From Candidatus Fokinia cryptica (GTDB taxonomy: Bacteria; Pseudomonadota; Alphaproteobacteria; Rickettsiales; Midichloriaceae): DNA of 64,000 nt. Made by a program: the position numbers and the translations under genes. Position 1 is the first letter of the stretch; every line of letters starts with the position of its first letter. Shown here one piece after another: positions 38,532 through 43,436 of the stretch. The notes below the pieces were generated by a model. It was not told the DNA's origin, made no database searches, and saw nothing but the letters and a program-made list of their open reading frames with translations. The stretch is from contig NZ_CP110343.1 in assembly GCF_034359305.1 (NCBI RefSeq), positions 21,823-85,822 of the forward strand, given 5' to 3'.

Positions 38532-38852
38532 ATGCAAATCAATAACGGTAAGAATCCAAAAGTCTTCGAAGCAGTAGGGGATGAGGTTTCAAAAGGCATC
38601 GCGATGTCATTAGCTAAATTCAGCAATTCAAGATACAAAAAAATACAAAATAGACTTTTTATCAAGGCTACCCCAGATATAAAGGAAAATATCACAAAAA
38701 CTACTGCGGAAATTTTGGAATTAACAAAAGAAAAGAAACGTAACATAGGAACTTCTCTAAAAGAAAGTCTTATAGAAAAAATGAAGCATAAAGTAAGCTC
38801 ATTTAGGGAAAAATTACTACACAATAGTAATAATAAGGATAAACAAAGGTAA
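38532..38852 (+). CDS. Small basic hypothetical protein
   Basis: A 106-residue protein from the ATG at 38532 (the frame extends to 38484). It is rich in Lys and Glu, predicted to be helical, with no signal peptide or membrane segment: MQINNGKNPKVFEAVGDE at the N-terminus and LKESLIEKMKHKVSSFREK near the C-terminus. An ORF on the opposite strand covers the same bases but reads as an artificial hydrophobic sequence. I do not recognise the family. Confidence 0.45.
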   Translation: MQINNGKNPKVFEAVGDEVSKGIAMSLAKFSNSRYKKIQNRLFIKATPDIKENITKTTAEILELTKEKKRNIGTSLKESLIEKMKHKVSSFREKLLHNSNNKDKQR

Positions 38853-39050
38853 AAAAAACATTCACATTAACCTATGATAATTAGCAATTTTTTGAAATAT
38901 AAAACCAATATAAGTGTTTTATATGAAGCATATTTATCTTCTATTACCCACCATGCAAAGTCACTTTAAATTTTCCGCAATACTATCTACTGATGAACCT
39001 TATCAACCTTGCATATCATATCAAATCATAGTAAATTTAATAGTTGTTAT

Positions 39051-39794
39051 ATGAGTACGAAGTTCTTTATGCTAAACTCCATTAAGGCGATTTTATTAGG
39101 GTGCCCTGGTAGTGGTAAAGGCACTTTAGGTCAAAGGATATCAACATTTTTTTCAATTCCGGTTCTCTCTACCGGAAAATTGCTCAGAGCACGCTTTCCA
39201 CATGAAGAAAAAGATCATAGCAGTGGTATAGATAACGGAATGTTAATAGAAGATGAAAAAATAATAAGTATTTTAAAAGAAACATTAATAAAAAAAGAAT
39301 ATTCTCATGGAGTAATACTTGATGGATACCCTAGAACTATTAGACAGGCAAAACTACTAGATGACGAAACAAAAGAAAATGGAACTCATGTTGTAATACT
39401 TGATGTGATAGTAGATGCTAAAATCGCGATAAAACGAATCGTTGGAAGATTCATGTGTAGTGAATGCGATAGTATATATAACTTATTTTTCAAATTACCT
39501 AAGTCGAACAGTATCATTTTGACACACGACATGACTGTAAAAGATTTACTAAATGGCTCTTCGTTATGTAAATGTGACAATTGTGGTAGTGAAACATTCT
39601 ACAATCGTAAAGACGATACAGAAGAAATAGCTCTAAAAAGGTACGAAGAATACGTCAAAAATACCCTACCACTTAGCGAATATTACAAAGACAGAAGACT
39701 GTACTTTAATTTTGATGGAAACAACTCGCCTCAATCTTTATACGATAAGGTACAAAAGATACTCCAGATTAGGAAAAACACACCAATACATTAA
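39051..39794 (+). CDS. adk: Adenylate kinase, cytoplasmic paralogue
   Basis: Adenylate kinase interconverts ATP, ADP and AMP. P-loop GCPGSGKGT, STGKLLRARF, GVILDGYPRT, the LID arginine in VGRFMC, the zinc-type LID cysteines CSEC and CDNC, and RKDDTEEIALKRYEEY are all present. The AMP-binding lid between LLRA and DNGMLIEDE is shorter than in E. coli Adk, and the LID between the Cys pairs is longer. Start could be ATG 39051 (247 residues) or 39069 (241). A paralogue with an export signal is at 40887, with fmt between them. Confidence 0.88.
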   Translation: MSTKFFMLNSIKAILLGCPGSGKGTLGQRISTFFSIPVLSTGKLLRARFPHEEKDHSSGIDNGMLIEDEKIISILKETLIKKEYSHGVILDGYPRTIRQAKLLDDETKENGTHVVILDVIVDAKIAIKRIVGRFMCSECDSIYNLFFKLPKSNSIILTHDMTVKDLLNGSSLCKCDNCGSETFYNRKDDTEEIALKRYEEYVKNTLPLSEYYKDRRLYFNFDGNNSPQSLYDKVQKILQIRKNTPIH

Positions 39795-39818
39795 TTTTCA
39801 CACTATTCCTAATGCTAT

Positions 39819-40826
39819 ATGAAATTAGTATTTATGGGAACCGGAGAGTTTGCTTTGCATCCATTGTTAAAACTACTCAAAAGCAAGCATGAGGTTGTTG
39901 CAATATATACTAAATGCGGAAAAAATAATCCAATTTTAGATTTAGCATACAAGTACGACATTCAAGCCTTTACTCCAAACTCTTTAAAAAATGAAGAGCA
40001 TATTATACAATTGACCAAAATTGCACCGTCTGCATGTATAGTAGCATCATATGGACTCATAATTCCGTCACTTATGCTTAGCATCCCACCAAACGGATTT
40101 ATCAATATACATCCATCATCTCTACCTAGATGGCGTGGCGCAGCACCAATTCAACGTGCAATAATATCGGGCGATAAAAATATACAAGTATGCATTATGC
40201 AGATGGATGCTGGACTCGATACTGGAGATGTGATGCTATCTCAAACGGTTGCCATTGAGAACGAAACGTACTCCGAGATCTTACCAACCCTTTCTAACAT
40301 AGGAGGTAATCTACTCCTTCAAGTCTTAGAACTAATACAAGAAAATTCAGTAACATTAAAAAAACAAACCGAAGTCGGAATCACATATGCCAATAAGATC
40401 AAGAACACAGAATGCATAGTAGACTACGGTAAATCTGGATATGAAATACATAACTTAGTAAGAGGATTACCCAAAGTTACAAGTGCTTTTTTAGCATTTC
40501 AGCAAAAAAGACTAAATTTAATTAAAAGTACACTTTTGAGATTCCAAAGTATTGAATATGAAGAATACTTGCATACAGCTCGAGTAATCTACAATTTGGA
40601 ATTTTCTTCAAAGATCGAAACAAAATCTAAGTTAGAGTTACAAAACGCAGATCTTTTATTTGCTAAGAAAAAAGGAATAGGAATATATTTCGCACTTGAC
40701 AAAAGCGTACTTCTACTTGAAAAAGTTCAACTCGAAGGCAAAAAAATTATGTCGGGACTCGATTTTTTAAATGGCTTATGGGGGAAAATGCATTTTTTTC
40801 ACTTTATTTGTTTTTTTTTCATATAA
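39819..40826 (+). CDS. fmt: Methionyl-tRNA formyltransferase
   Basis: Fmt formylates initiator Met-tRNA using 10-formyltetrahydrofolate. The N-terminal domain shows LVFMGTGEFALHPLL, the loop SYGLIIP, the catalytic Asn-x-His in INIHPSSLPRWRGAAPIQRA and the Asp in MDAGLDTGDVM. The C-terminal tRNA-binding domain follows, and the total of 335 residues is normal. It is normally linked to def; here it lies between two adenylate kinase genes. Confidence 0.95.
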   Translation: MKLVFMGTGEFALHPLLKLLKSKHEVVAIYTKCGKNNPILDLAYKYDIQAFTPNSLKNEEHIIQLTKIAPSACIVASYGLIIPSLMLSIPPNGFINIHPSSLPRWRGAAPIQRAIISGDKNIQVCIMQMDAGLDTGDVMLSQTVAIENETYSEILPTLSNIGGNLLLQVLELIQENSVTLKKQTEVGITYANKIKNTECIVDYGKSGYEIHNLVRGLPKVTSAFLAFQQKRLNLIKSTLLRFQSIEYEEYLHTARVIYNLEFSSKIETKSKLELQNADLLFAKKKGIGIYFALDKSVLLLEKVQLEGKKIMSGLDFLNGLWGKMHFFHFICFFFI

Positions 40827-40849
40827 AAGGTTGTTTGTTGCAAACCTTT
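40826..40849 (+). other. Hairpin directly after the fmt stop
   Basis: AAAGGTT at 40826-40832 pairs with AACCTTT at 40843-40849 around a 10-base loop. A ten-base T run lies about 25 bases further on, near 40872-40883, too far for a classical terminator. It may be an attenuator or processing site before the lipoprotein adenylate kinase. Confidence 0.35.
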
Positions 40850-40886
40850 CAGTAATATCTACGAGTATAAAAGTTTTTTTTTAAAG

Positions 40887-41720
40887 ATGAAGAAATTCTT
40901 AGTAGCTGTATTGCTTTCTGTAGTTACTTTACTCAGCTCATGTAGTCCACAGAACACAGATCATAAGACTTCCGTTTCAGAAAATCCTGTACATAGAGTA
41001 AAGATAGTTCTTTTAGGAGCTCCTGGTAGTGGAAAAGGCACTTTTGGTGCAATGCTCTCATCTCAACTCAATATCCCAATACTTTCGATGGGTAGTGCGA
41101 TGAGAGAGTACTTCAAATCATCTACAAATCCTGAAATAGCACAACTACAAAGTGGTAAGCTGCTGGATGATAAAACCGTCACTCAAATTTTGAAGCAGAA
41201 GTTACTAGAACCACAATACGCAAATGGTGTTATATTAGATGGATACCCACGAACAGTTGCTCAAGGATTAATGCTAGATGAAGCTTTGGGCGATAGAAAT
41301 GGTTCTTTAATCATCGTAAATGTTAACGCAACTCTTAGTGCAATAGAAAAAAGAAGCTCTGGACGCTTTATGTGTGCAAAATGCGATGCAATCTACAACA
41401 TATATTCTAGTTTACCGAAAGTGCATGATAAATCTCTTGATAGCGGTAAGATTACAAGAGAACAAATGTTAGCACGTAGTAATATGTGTACGTGTGATCA
41501 CTGCGGAAGTAGTAAGTTTTATGCTAGAAAAGATGATACGCGTAAGGTGATATTATACAGGTATTGCGAATATCGAAAAAATACCCTACCTCTCATAAAG
41601 CATTATCAAAAGTATCAAGCTTTCTTTGATGTCGATGGCAACTGTGATATTTCTCTCTTATCTAAGCAAGCAATCGATCTAGCACAAAATTTACGCCCTC
41701 TTCTAGCTTTAAAAAAATAA
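40887..41720 (+). CDS. Adenylate kinase-like protein with lipoprotein signal peptide
   Basis: The 277-residue protein starts with MKKFLVAVLLSVVTLLSSCS, a type II signal peptide with lipobox L16-S17-S18-C19, so the mature protein should be lipid-anchored in the envelope. A full adenylate kinase fold follows: GAPGSGKGT, SMGSAMREYF, GVILDGYPRT, SGRFMCAKC, CDHC and RKDDTRKVILYRYCEY, with all the expected arginines kept. It is clearly paralogous to the protein at 39051. Lnt, needed to finish lipoproteins, is encoded at 6853. Export of a nucleotide kinase is inferred; its function there is unknown. Confidence 0.85.
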   Translation: MKKFLVAVLLSVVTLLSSCSPQNTDHKTSVSENPVHRVKIVLLGAPGSGKGTFGAMLSSQLNIPILSMGSAMREYFKSSTNPEIAQLQSGKLLDDKTVTQILKQKLLEPQYANGVILDGYPRTVAQGLMLDEALGDRNGSLIIVNVNATLSAIEKRSSGRFMCAKCDAIYNIYSSLPKVHDKSLDSGKITREQMLARSNMCTCDHCGSSKFYARKDDTRKVILYRYCEYRKNTLPLIKHYQKYQAFFDVDGNCDISLLSKQAIDLAQNLRPLLALKK

Positions 41721-41912
41721 CATCCAGAAATTGGAAAATTATCTGAACATTTTTTATTGCTCACGTAGTTTTCCAAAGATCCTTTCATTTTATTATTTTT
41801 TTGTAACTTGAATATTATACGATATGCGTAATAAGAATTGGCAGTTTCTAAATCTATTGTGATACTTAAATGTCTATTTACTTCTTACGTCTCAATCTTT
41901 AAAATCGCCGCC

Positions 41913-41939
41913 TTAGATAGGATATAAGTTTGTATCTAA
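41913..41939. promoter_or_regulatory. Short inverted repeat upstream of the POT transporter
   Basis: TTAGATA at 41913-41919 and TATCTAA at 41933-41939 form perfect 7-base arms around 13 bases, 40 bases before the transporter start. It could be an operator or mRNA leader hairpin; no regulator is identifiable nearby. Confidence 0.25.
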
Positions 41940-41978
41940 CGCTCATAATTATTTTGTAAAGTCTTCACTTCCTTTTCT

Positions 41979-43436
41979 ATGAGTAATACTAAAATTCTCG
42001 CAAATAGAACATTTCCCAACTTTCTATGTTTGCTTTTTTTTGTAGAAATGTGGGAACGTTTCAGTTATTACGGAATGAGAGCTCTACTCATACTATTTCT
42101 AACTTCGTATATCGGCATTACAGATAAGAAGGCATACGTTATATATTCACTTTTTGCAGCAGTGTCATATGCTGTACCGATTATAGGTGGTTATCTTGCA
42201 GATCGCATTATGGGCTTTAGGAAAATGGTCATAATAGGTGCTCTTATCATGACATTTGGACATACAGCATTAGCATTCTCTGGAATGGACTCATACGCAA
42301 TATTTTTAGGGCTAAGTTTGATAGGAGTAGGAACGGGCTTATTTAAAGGCAATATAACTAATCTTCTCGGAGAGTGTTATCGTAATAAAGAAGAGGACAG
42401 AAGTACAGGATTTGGATTATTCTATGTTGGTGTAAATGTTGGCTCATTTCTAGCATCTATCTCATGTGGAATTGTAGCACAACAATACGGATGGCATTGC
42501 GGTTTTGGATTAGCGGGGTTTGGAATGTTCTTAGGATTAATAACATTTATTAAATTTCAATATGTTTTAGGAGATACAGGGAAAAGCCCTATCGATAACA
42601 CAAAAGCAGCAAATATACTCCAATTTTCGGGAGTTATGGCATTTAGTATCATTCTTTCTCTTGTTTGTGCTACATCATTCGAAAATTCAGAATTATTCGT
42701 TAATGCACTGCAATATTTCGGCTGTGTGCTTCTTATAATATTTGGATATATCACTTATAAAACAGATACAAAGAACAGAGAAAATATGTACATTATAGCA
42801 ATAATGATAGTTTTTTTAATGCTATTCTTTGCACTAGAAATGCAACTTGGATCATTGATCAATTTATTTACGGAAAGGAATGTTGCTAGTACTGTTTTTG
42901 GAATACAAATCCCAGCCGCTATCTCTCAAGCAATTAACCCAATCTCTGTAATTTTATTTGGACTCTTATTTAACACTTTTTTTAAAATGCGGAAGTCGCT
43001 AGATACTTTCAGAATATTAATTGGGATAATCGCAATCGCAGTATGCTTTTTCATACTTTACATTGGCTGTATGAACGCCGATTCTACAAGCCGTGTACAT
43101 TACATATATCTTATAGTTAGTATATCTATTATGGGACTGGGAGAAATTTTTATTGCTCCTATAGTACAATCATACGTTTCTTTACTTGCCCCTCAAAAAT
43201 ATAAAGGGCTTATTATGGGAATAATGTTACTTTCTCTTGCTTTTTCTAATCTTGGAGGAGTGATAATCGCTGAATTTATGTCTATATCGAATGACAATGG
43301 ATTACTCGCAGCATCTAACTCTCTTCAAATATATAAAGAAGGCTTCTTAAATATAGCTATTTTCAATCTTTATATAGCTGTAGCTTTTATTCCATTCGGC
43401 TTATATATTCACAGAAAACTGTCGCAAAGGAAGTGA
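41979..43436 (+). CDS. Proton-dependent oligopeptide transporter (POT/PTR family)
   Basis: An MFS-type inner-membrane symporter for di- and tripeptides. The 485 residues have about 12-14 hydrophobic segments. The POT signature is evident early: FVEMWERFSYYGMRALLILF with the ExxER-type motif at residues 22-26, then GGYLADRIMGFRK and the FYVGVNVGSFL segment in TM5 (the PTR signature region). Imported peptides would feed PepP. Substrate specificity within the family is not resolvable. Confidence 0.93.
   Translation: MSNTKILANRTFPNFLCLLFFVEMWERFSYYGMRALLILFLTSYIGITDKKAYVIYSLFAAVSYAVPIIGGYLADRIMGFRKMVIIGALIMTFGHTALAFSGMDSYAIFLGLSLIGVGTGLFKGNITNLLGECYRNKEEDRSTGFGLFYVGVNVGSFLASISCGIVAQQYGWHCGFGLAGFGMFLGLITFIKFQYVLGDTGKSPIDNTKAANILQFSGVMAFSIILSLVCATSFENSELFVNALQYFGCVLLIIFGYITYKTDTKNRENMYIIAIMIVFLMLFFALEMQLGSLINLFTERNVASTVFGIQIPAAISQAINPISVILFGLLFNTFFKMRKSLDTFRILIGIIAIAVCFFILYIGCMNADSTSRVHYIYLIVSISIMGLGEIFIAPIVQSYVSLLAPQKYKGLIMGIMLLSLAFSNLGGVIIAEFMSISNDNGLLAASNSLQIYKEGFLNIAIFNLYIAVAFIPFGLYIHRKLSQRK

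Follow-up and report, generated by a model that had tools for sequence, protein, structure and literature searches.

A predicted lipoprotein-type adenylate kinase in Candidatus Fokinia cryptica and the recurrence of signal-bearing adenylate kinases in Rickettsiales

The forward-strand gene at 40887..41720 of the 64,000-nucleotide stretch of the Candidatus Fokinia cryptica genome analysed here (contig NZ_CP110343.1, positions 21,823 to 85,822; hereafter the window) raises the question of whether an adenylate kinase (Adk) may be built as a lipoprotein, and what such an enzyme would do outside the inner membrane of a host-dependent bacterium. The gene, designated c2, begins with ATG and encodes an ORF of 277 amino acids whose N-terminus, MKKFLVAVLLSVVTLLSSC, consists of two Lys residues, a strongly hydrophobic core (mean hydropathy of 3.01 over 12 residues) and the lipobox L-S-S-C at residues 16-19, with a net charge of +2 ahead of the core and 0 across the following 15 residues. 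Lipoprotein signals were scored by a simple rule devised for this analysis, and by this rule, together with shuffling, charge and hydropathy, residues 1-19 (40887..40943) were assigned as a lipoprotein-type signal with Cys19 as the predicted lipidated residue; both the lipobox-containing signal and the Cys at the cleavage site looked for in a bacterial lipoprotein are present. Applied to the window's 58 long, non-overlapping ORFs, the rule picked out c2 alone; it was passed by 96 of 100,000 shuffles of its residues 2-41 and by 62 of 100,000 shuffles of its mature domain. The LSSC lipoprotein signal proposed at residues 16-19 by an earlier sequence-only reading was thus borne out. The signal is followed by a polar linker (residues 20-37, 40944..40997), the model confidence (pLDDT) being low up to about residue 30.

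The same reading had warned that translation might begin downstream of the lipobox. Within the first 60 codons of c2, in-frame ATG, GTG or TTG codons occur at residues 1, 9 and 56 alone, the last of which lies downstream of the P-loop. The objection of an internal start therefore fails, since none of these codons is found between the lipobox and the P-loop, and a start behind the lipobox would require a codon other than ATG, GTG or TTG, or else would yield a broken kinase. A search of the genome further revealed that Lgt and LspA are both encoded. Taken as a prediction from these features, export of c2 is highly probable.

The Adk domain of c2 (residues 38-277, 40998..41717) was delimited by Pfam, a structural model and PDB matches, the Pfam ADK match spanning residues 42-243 with an E value of 1e-24. 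Compared with the respective cut-offs, c2 scored 87.8 against 26.8 bits for PF00406, 156.3 against 168 for TIGR01351 and 24.1 against 26.6 for PF05191 (ADK_lid), PF00406 alone being exceeded. The AlphaFold2 model (mean pLDDT of 87.1, with ten-residue block means of 79-97 from residue 31 and 46-53 before it) has the Adk fold, as the best 50 of 188 PDB matches, with E values up to 0.001, were all adenylate kinases, headed by 5g3y at 3.2e-16. Sequence and alignment place the P-loop GAPGSGKGT at residues 44-52 (41016..41042). The residues K50, R73, D118, R122, Q126, R156, R160, R214, D216, D217 and R225 were identical in all 38 other Adk rows of the alignment and correspond to K13, R36, D84, R88, Q92, R119, R123, R156, D158, D159 and R167 of E. 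coli Adk, its active-site residues. The P-loop Lys, the six catalytic Arg residues, the Asp pair, the Mg-site Asp and the AMP-site Gln are all present. In addition, the LID stretch (residues 156-217, 41352..41537) is of the zinc type, with C163, C166, C203 and C206. The Pfam match, the residues conserved in 38 of 38 rows and the four Cys residues uphold the earlier description of a complete Adk domain with P-loop, arginines and zinc-type LID, and c2 is very likely an active adenylate kinase. With the signal, the lack of an internal start, the encoded Lgt and LspA and the conserved active site occurring together, the sequence speaks strongly for an Adk that is anchored in the envelope and catalytically complete.

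The genome, a single contig of 815,586 bp, contained two PF00406 matches, c2 and a further gene, c1, and no third Adk was found in the PF00406 search of its whole length. This second Adk (39009..39794, + strand; Pfam and TIGR matches), which was absent from the earlier reading, ends 1.1 kb upstream of c2 and bears no signal; it is listed from a TTG codon, and its true start may be the Met codon at residue 15 or 21. Between the two lies an fmt-like formyl transferase gene (39819..40826, + strand; Pfam Formyl_trans_N and Formyl_trans_C), and downstream of c2 a POT-family transporter gene (41979..43436, + strand; Pfam PTR2), linked to it by adjacency only. No terminator-like sites and no excess of promoter-like sites were found within 38700-42100, a result that is uninformative. 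In the Adk tree, in which several rows are long branches, c1 and c2 were sisters with a support of 100/99; they are 42% identical and share, between the two Cys pairs of the LID, an insertion absent from the other aligned rows. Given this sister relationship and the common insertion, c2 appears to be a local duplicate that arose in its own lineage. The terminal branch of c2 (1.59) is longer than that of c1 (0.60), and the codon use of c2 is near that of its neighbours, although all eight other genes scored are more typical.

At the AMP site c2 has Met where Thr occurs in 34 of the 38 rows and, two places on, Ser where Asp occurs in 30 of 38, and its phosphate acceptor could therefore differ. 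These substitutions at the adenine-binding part of the site, together with the longer branch of c2, would suit a change of c2 into a nucleoside-monophosphate kinase with a different specificity, or into a binding protein, outside the inner membrane; nevertheless, Gln126 and the phosphate-handling residues are retained, and Met stands at the same site in L049, the only Adk detected in a genome from a different family, which leaves this reading unlikely. Nor was the missing Thr accepted as the mark of a dead enzyme, as the site also varies in cytosolic Adk of other Rickettsiales.

To what extent the architecture of c2 recurs was assessed in 343 genomes of the order, at least 85 of which gave two or more matches to PF00406. 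All 85 of these multi-match genomes (14 within a 53-genome set and 71 others) were searched with c2, and two further families, represented by 18 and 85 genomes, were screened with an alignment of ten Adk copies. Nine genomes of the order showed two separate Adk genes, and in six of them (G000, G005, G009, G128, G131 and G216), the window's own included, one copy has a cleavable-type signal and the other is plain. N-termini were read for a subset of loci among the 343 genomes, several of which are incomplete, and the genomes with an exported copy accordingly number at least six. The same architecture, which the sequence-only reading had advised seeking in relatives, is hence found as a pair of signal-bearing and plain Adk in five other genomes. 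Since the six genomes fall in three family-level groups, a second Adk predicted to be exported is a recurrent feature of the order.

Beyond the window's genome, two of the five exported copies are of the lipoprotein type, with the N-termini MIKRISAIICITLLLVAC (G005) and MTKYFTLFLLFVSLVSC (G131), and three are of the peptidase-I type, their signals ending in GIAHA followed by QD (G009), DFALA followed by GD (G128) and TISEA followed by KN (G216). A hydrophobic N-terminal segment was seen on both Adk copies of G135 and G137, and on none in G272. Of 123 Adk-like ORFs in an initial set of loci, a few of which are truncated duplicates, a credible exported N-terminus was found in c2 and in the copies of G005 and G009 alone; a fourth flagged row, L118, was dismissed as a long read-through frame. 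A start codon between signal and P-loop is absent from four of the six exported copies (c2, G005, G131 and G128), and an in-frame ATG in or just behind the hydrophobic core occurs at residue 36 of the G009 copy (with another at 78) and residue 20 of the G216 copy, so that these two genes may also give a shorter, plain product. Several further matches were left out of the count of second copies: those of G154, G175, G293 and G335 are pieces, the two pieces of G136, found at contig ends, seem to belong to a single gene, and so do the pieces of G019, and a weak second match in G313 yielded no Adk ORF. The search with the ten-copy alignment gave weak extra matches with E values of 9.4e-8 and worse, and the loci L187 and L188 were scanned for the P-loop motif.

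In the ten aligned copies with an export signal or membrane segment, the P-loop Lys, the six Arg residues and the counterparts of D118 and D217 were kept throughout. Departures at other positions were seen in individual copies: the exported copies of G131 and G128 have Tyr in place of the P-loop Thr and no zinc stretch in the LID, the G009 copy has lost two of the four LID Cys residues, D216 is replaced by Ser in the G216 copy, and in both G135 and G137 the second copy has Asn for Q126. Separately, the plain Adk of G005 (L036:3030-3866) was observed to have a long insertion ahead of the LID.

Two of the exported copies share a genomic setting. In two genera of family f15 (L150:2611-3231 and L152:555-1163), the exported Adk gene stands behind rpoC, at a gap of 5 bases in G131 and 1 base in G128, rpoC having been identified by Pfam in the former and by likeness in the latter. 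The two proteins are sisters (100/98) and 38% identical, and the signal is of the lipoprotein type in G131 and of the peptidase-I type in G128. With sisters at the same place carrying different signal types, export seems to have been retained while the mode of signal processing was switched. Forcing all six exported copies into a single clade cost 40.7 log units (p-AU of 0.036), a weak result in that the group was picked after the tree had been seen, and one ancient exported Adk ancestral to all six is on this post hoc test disfavoured. Clades made up of the five exported copies without c2 (p-AU of 0.296) and of c2 with the G005 copy (p-AU of 0.116) were not rejected. From these topology tests, two origins of the exported Adk are likely and more are possible. 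The exported copy of G216 pairs, with weak support (86/52), with the plain Adk of its own genome.

What an Adk outside the inner membrane might do was considered in the light of nucleotide supply. A recent survey of host-dependent Rickettsiales ties their nucleotide supply to Tlc carriers (PMC10847448). The present genome has one full Tlc-type translocase match (276.6 bits; genome positions 328323-329744) and one partial match, and ATP/ADP exchange by the full protein is assumed, since it is divergent. The partial match (L135, genome positions 123800-125700) is a Tlc-like protein covering profile positions 8-264 of 491 alone, whose frame stops after about 270 residues. Across 23 genomes of the family, the best Tlc copy scored 442-626 bits in 17 and 157, 106 and 52 bits in others, and two genomes had none. 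A Tlc match is accordingly present in 21 of 23 family genomes and an exported Adk was found in three; because no exported Adk was seen in 18 of the 21 Tlc-bearing genomes, the enzyme would not be required for import and could be at most an addition to it. The adenylosuccinate synthetase gene purA (PF00709) was found in none of the 23 family genomes, as against 14 of 14 control genomes, and adenylates must therefore come from outside or from salvage.

A nucleoside transporter of the CNT type was also considered. The genome has one CNT match, and in G009 the exported Adk gene stands behind a CNT gene on the same strand, an order that would suit the uptake of adenosine made from AMP. CNT genes were found in 12 of 23 family genomes, including all three with an exported Adk, a co-occurrence that is not significant (P of 0.12). 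With a single adjacency and no significant co-occurrence, CNT was dropped as a partner. Elsewhere, two CNT matches (G017:C33:14217-14615 and G007:C1:610683-610931) contain internal stop codons and are apparently broken genes.

On the mechanism we propose, the duplicated Adk gained a lipoprotein signal, and c2 would leave the cytosol by Sec, receive its lipid at Cys19 from Lgt and be cut by LspA. The 18-residue tether would then hold it at the envelope, facing the periplasm, and there it would interconvert ATP plus AMP and two ADP. A cell lacking purA could not make AMP from IMP and would probably draw host adenylates through the Tlc-type translocase; c2 could then regenerate ATP, along with AMP, beside the carrier from the ADP that ATP/ADP exchange sets free, and convert host AMP into ADP acceptable to a carrier. 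The lack of purA and the probable uptake of host adenylates via Tlc are what make nucleotide import the likely service of c2. Location, activity and coupling to import are all inferred here, and the last is the weakest step: granted export and activity, a role in adenylate import is a matter of even chances, and the chain as a whole, from export through activity to a general role in import in whichever reaction direction, stands equally in the balance. The earlier proposal had been of an envelope-anchored Adk balancing ATP, ADP and AMP near translocases, of which the anchored, complete enzyme stands, as far as sequence can tell, and the balancing role fits a genome that has Tlc and gave no match to purA. 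More tentatively, and with rather less confidence than in the chain itself, the placing of a second Adk outside the inner membrane might be a step of host dependence that recurs in Rickettsiales and has evolved in part independently, giving a periplasmic adenylate converter, like the Adk of the mitochondrial intermembrane space, that recycles ADP leaving via Tlc and feeds AMP/adenosine salvage. The mitochondrial enzyme, AK2, is not known to be lipid-anchored, unlike the predicted c2.

If the proposed role in import is true, a periplasmic Adk would add an enzymatic step to ATP/ADP exchange with the host and alter the current picture of it. The presence of similar exported copies in several distant relatives suggests that host-dependent bacteria of this kind handle host ATP, ADP and AMP outside their cytoplasm. 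As the arrangement recurs in three family-level groups, with some copies lipid-anchored and others cleaved, the idea could be put to the test in laboratory E. coli, with no need to culture the symbionts.

The signal that would direct c2 out of the cytosol would also suit an action on the host side, in which the kinase would not serve import. Located at the bacterial surface, or once released, it would instead shift local host ATP, ADP and AMP in energy metabolism or purine signalling. The lipid anchor, however, favours retention, and the host cytosol already contains its own Adk. The peptidase-I-type forms of three relatives could leave the cell, given another export step. According to a review, several pathogenic bacteria secrete adenylate kinase as a virulence factor (PMC2680645). 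On balance, we regard action on the host as improbable.

Less probable again is that c2 keeps its N-terminal segment as a membrane anchor and turns its kinase domain towards the cytosol, where it would supply nucleotides on the inner side of the membrane. This reading draws on genus g61 of family f15, in which the hydrophobic segment of Adk is flanked by positive charges on both sides, the four copies of G135 and G137 having +2 to +4 before it and +3 to +4 after it; no plain Adk was found in the seven g61 genomes (75-89% complete), and G133, G134, G138 and G139, with one Adk gene each, have the segment on it as well, some copies having an ATG near the P-loop. In c2, by contrast, the charge falls from +2 before the segment to 0 after it and the lipobox Cys ends the segment, as in an N-in signal layout, and the genome encodes Lgt and LspA. 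The copies of g61 with a hydrophobic segment are found at loci L165-L170, L145, L147 and L154. Finally, that c2 is a decaying duplicate with a chance hydrophobic stretch at its N-terminus, as its longer branch might hint, is very improbable, given an ORF and active site intact despite divergence to 42% identity with c1, a codon use near the neighbours' (if least typical of the nine), a chance rate for such an N-terminus of about 1 in 1000 and the recurrence of signal-bearing Adk in five more genomes.

The preferred reading of c2, an anchored Adk on the periplasmic side, was finally compared with known systems. Among the matches listed in open-licence PMC literature, by titles and the starts of abstracts, no lipoprotein-type or signal-bearing Adk was described in Rickettsiales. 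Adk outside the cytosol is not new in itself, as the accessible part of the review already cited reports, besides the secreted bacterial enzymes, a myristoylated AK2 of Plasmodium falciparum and the AK2 of the mitochondrial intermembrane space (PMC2680645); neither an Adk in lipoprotein form nor its repeated occurrence within the order was found in print. That part names, for the secreted and lipid-modified enzymes, no lipoprotein signal, Rickettsiales, import role or secretion route (PMC2680645). In the excerpts of two other papers, Adk is listed in a table for a periplasm-enriched fraction of Xanthomonas (PMC7748154) and appears merely as a marker gene (PMC7789307). With the bacterial long-form adk (TIGR01351/PF00406), c2 shares the fold, the P-loop, the catalytic Arg and Asp residues and the four-Cys LID, and it differs in its lipoprotein signal and tether, the LID insertion in common with c1, its status as a second genomic copy and a TIGR01351 score below the cut-off. 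With lipoproteins processed by Lgt and LspA it shares the n-, h- and c-regions and the lipobox, both enzymes being encoded, and departs from the usual ones in its cargo, a central metabolic kinase that would need ATP outside the inner membrane. Exported alarmone synthetases, for which the excerpted source describes an N-terminal signal and suggests that export prevents self-toxicity, are like c2 in being nucleotide enzymes sent by a signal to where nucleotides are normally scarce, and differ in their product (PMC12691689). A likeness of place exists with mitochondrial AK2, which the same part of the review describes as needed for ADP/ATP traffic through the translocator: its position outside the inner membrane, beside an adenine nucleotide translocator, is that proposed for c2, an analogy of place only (PMC2680645).
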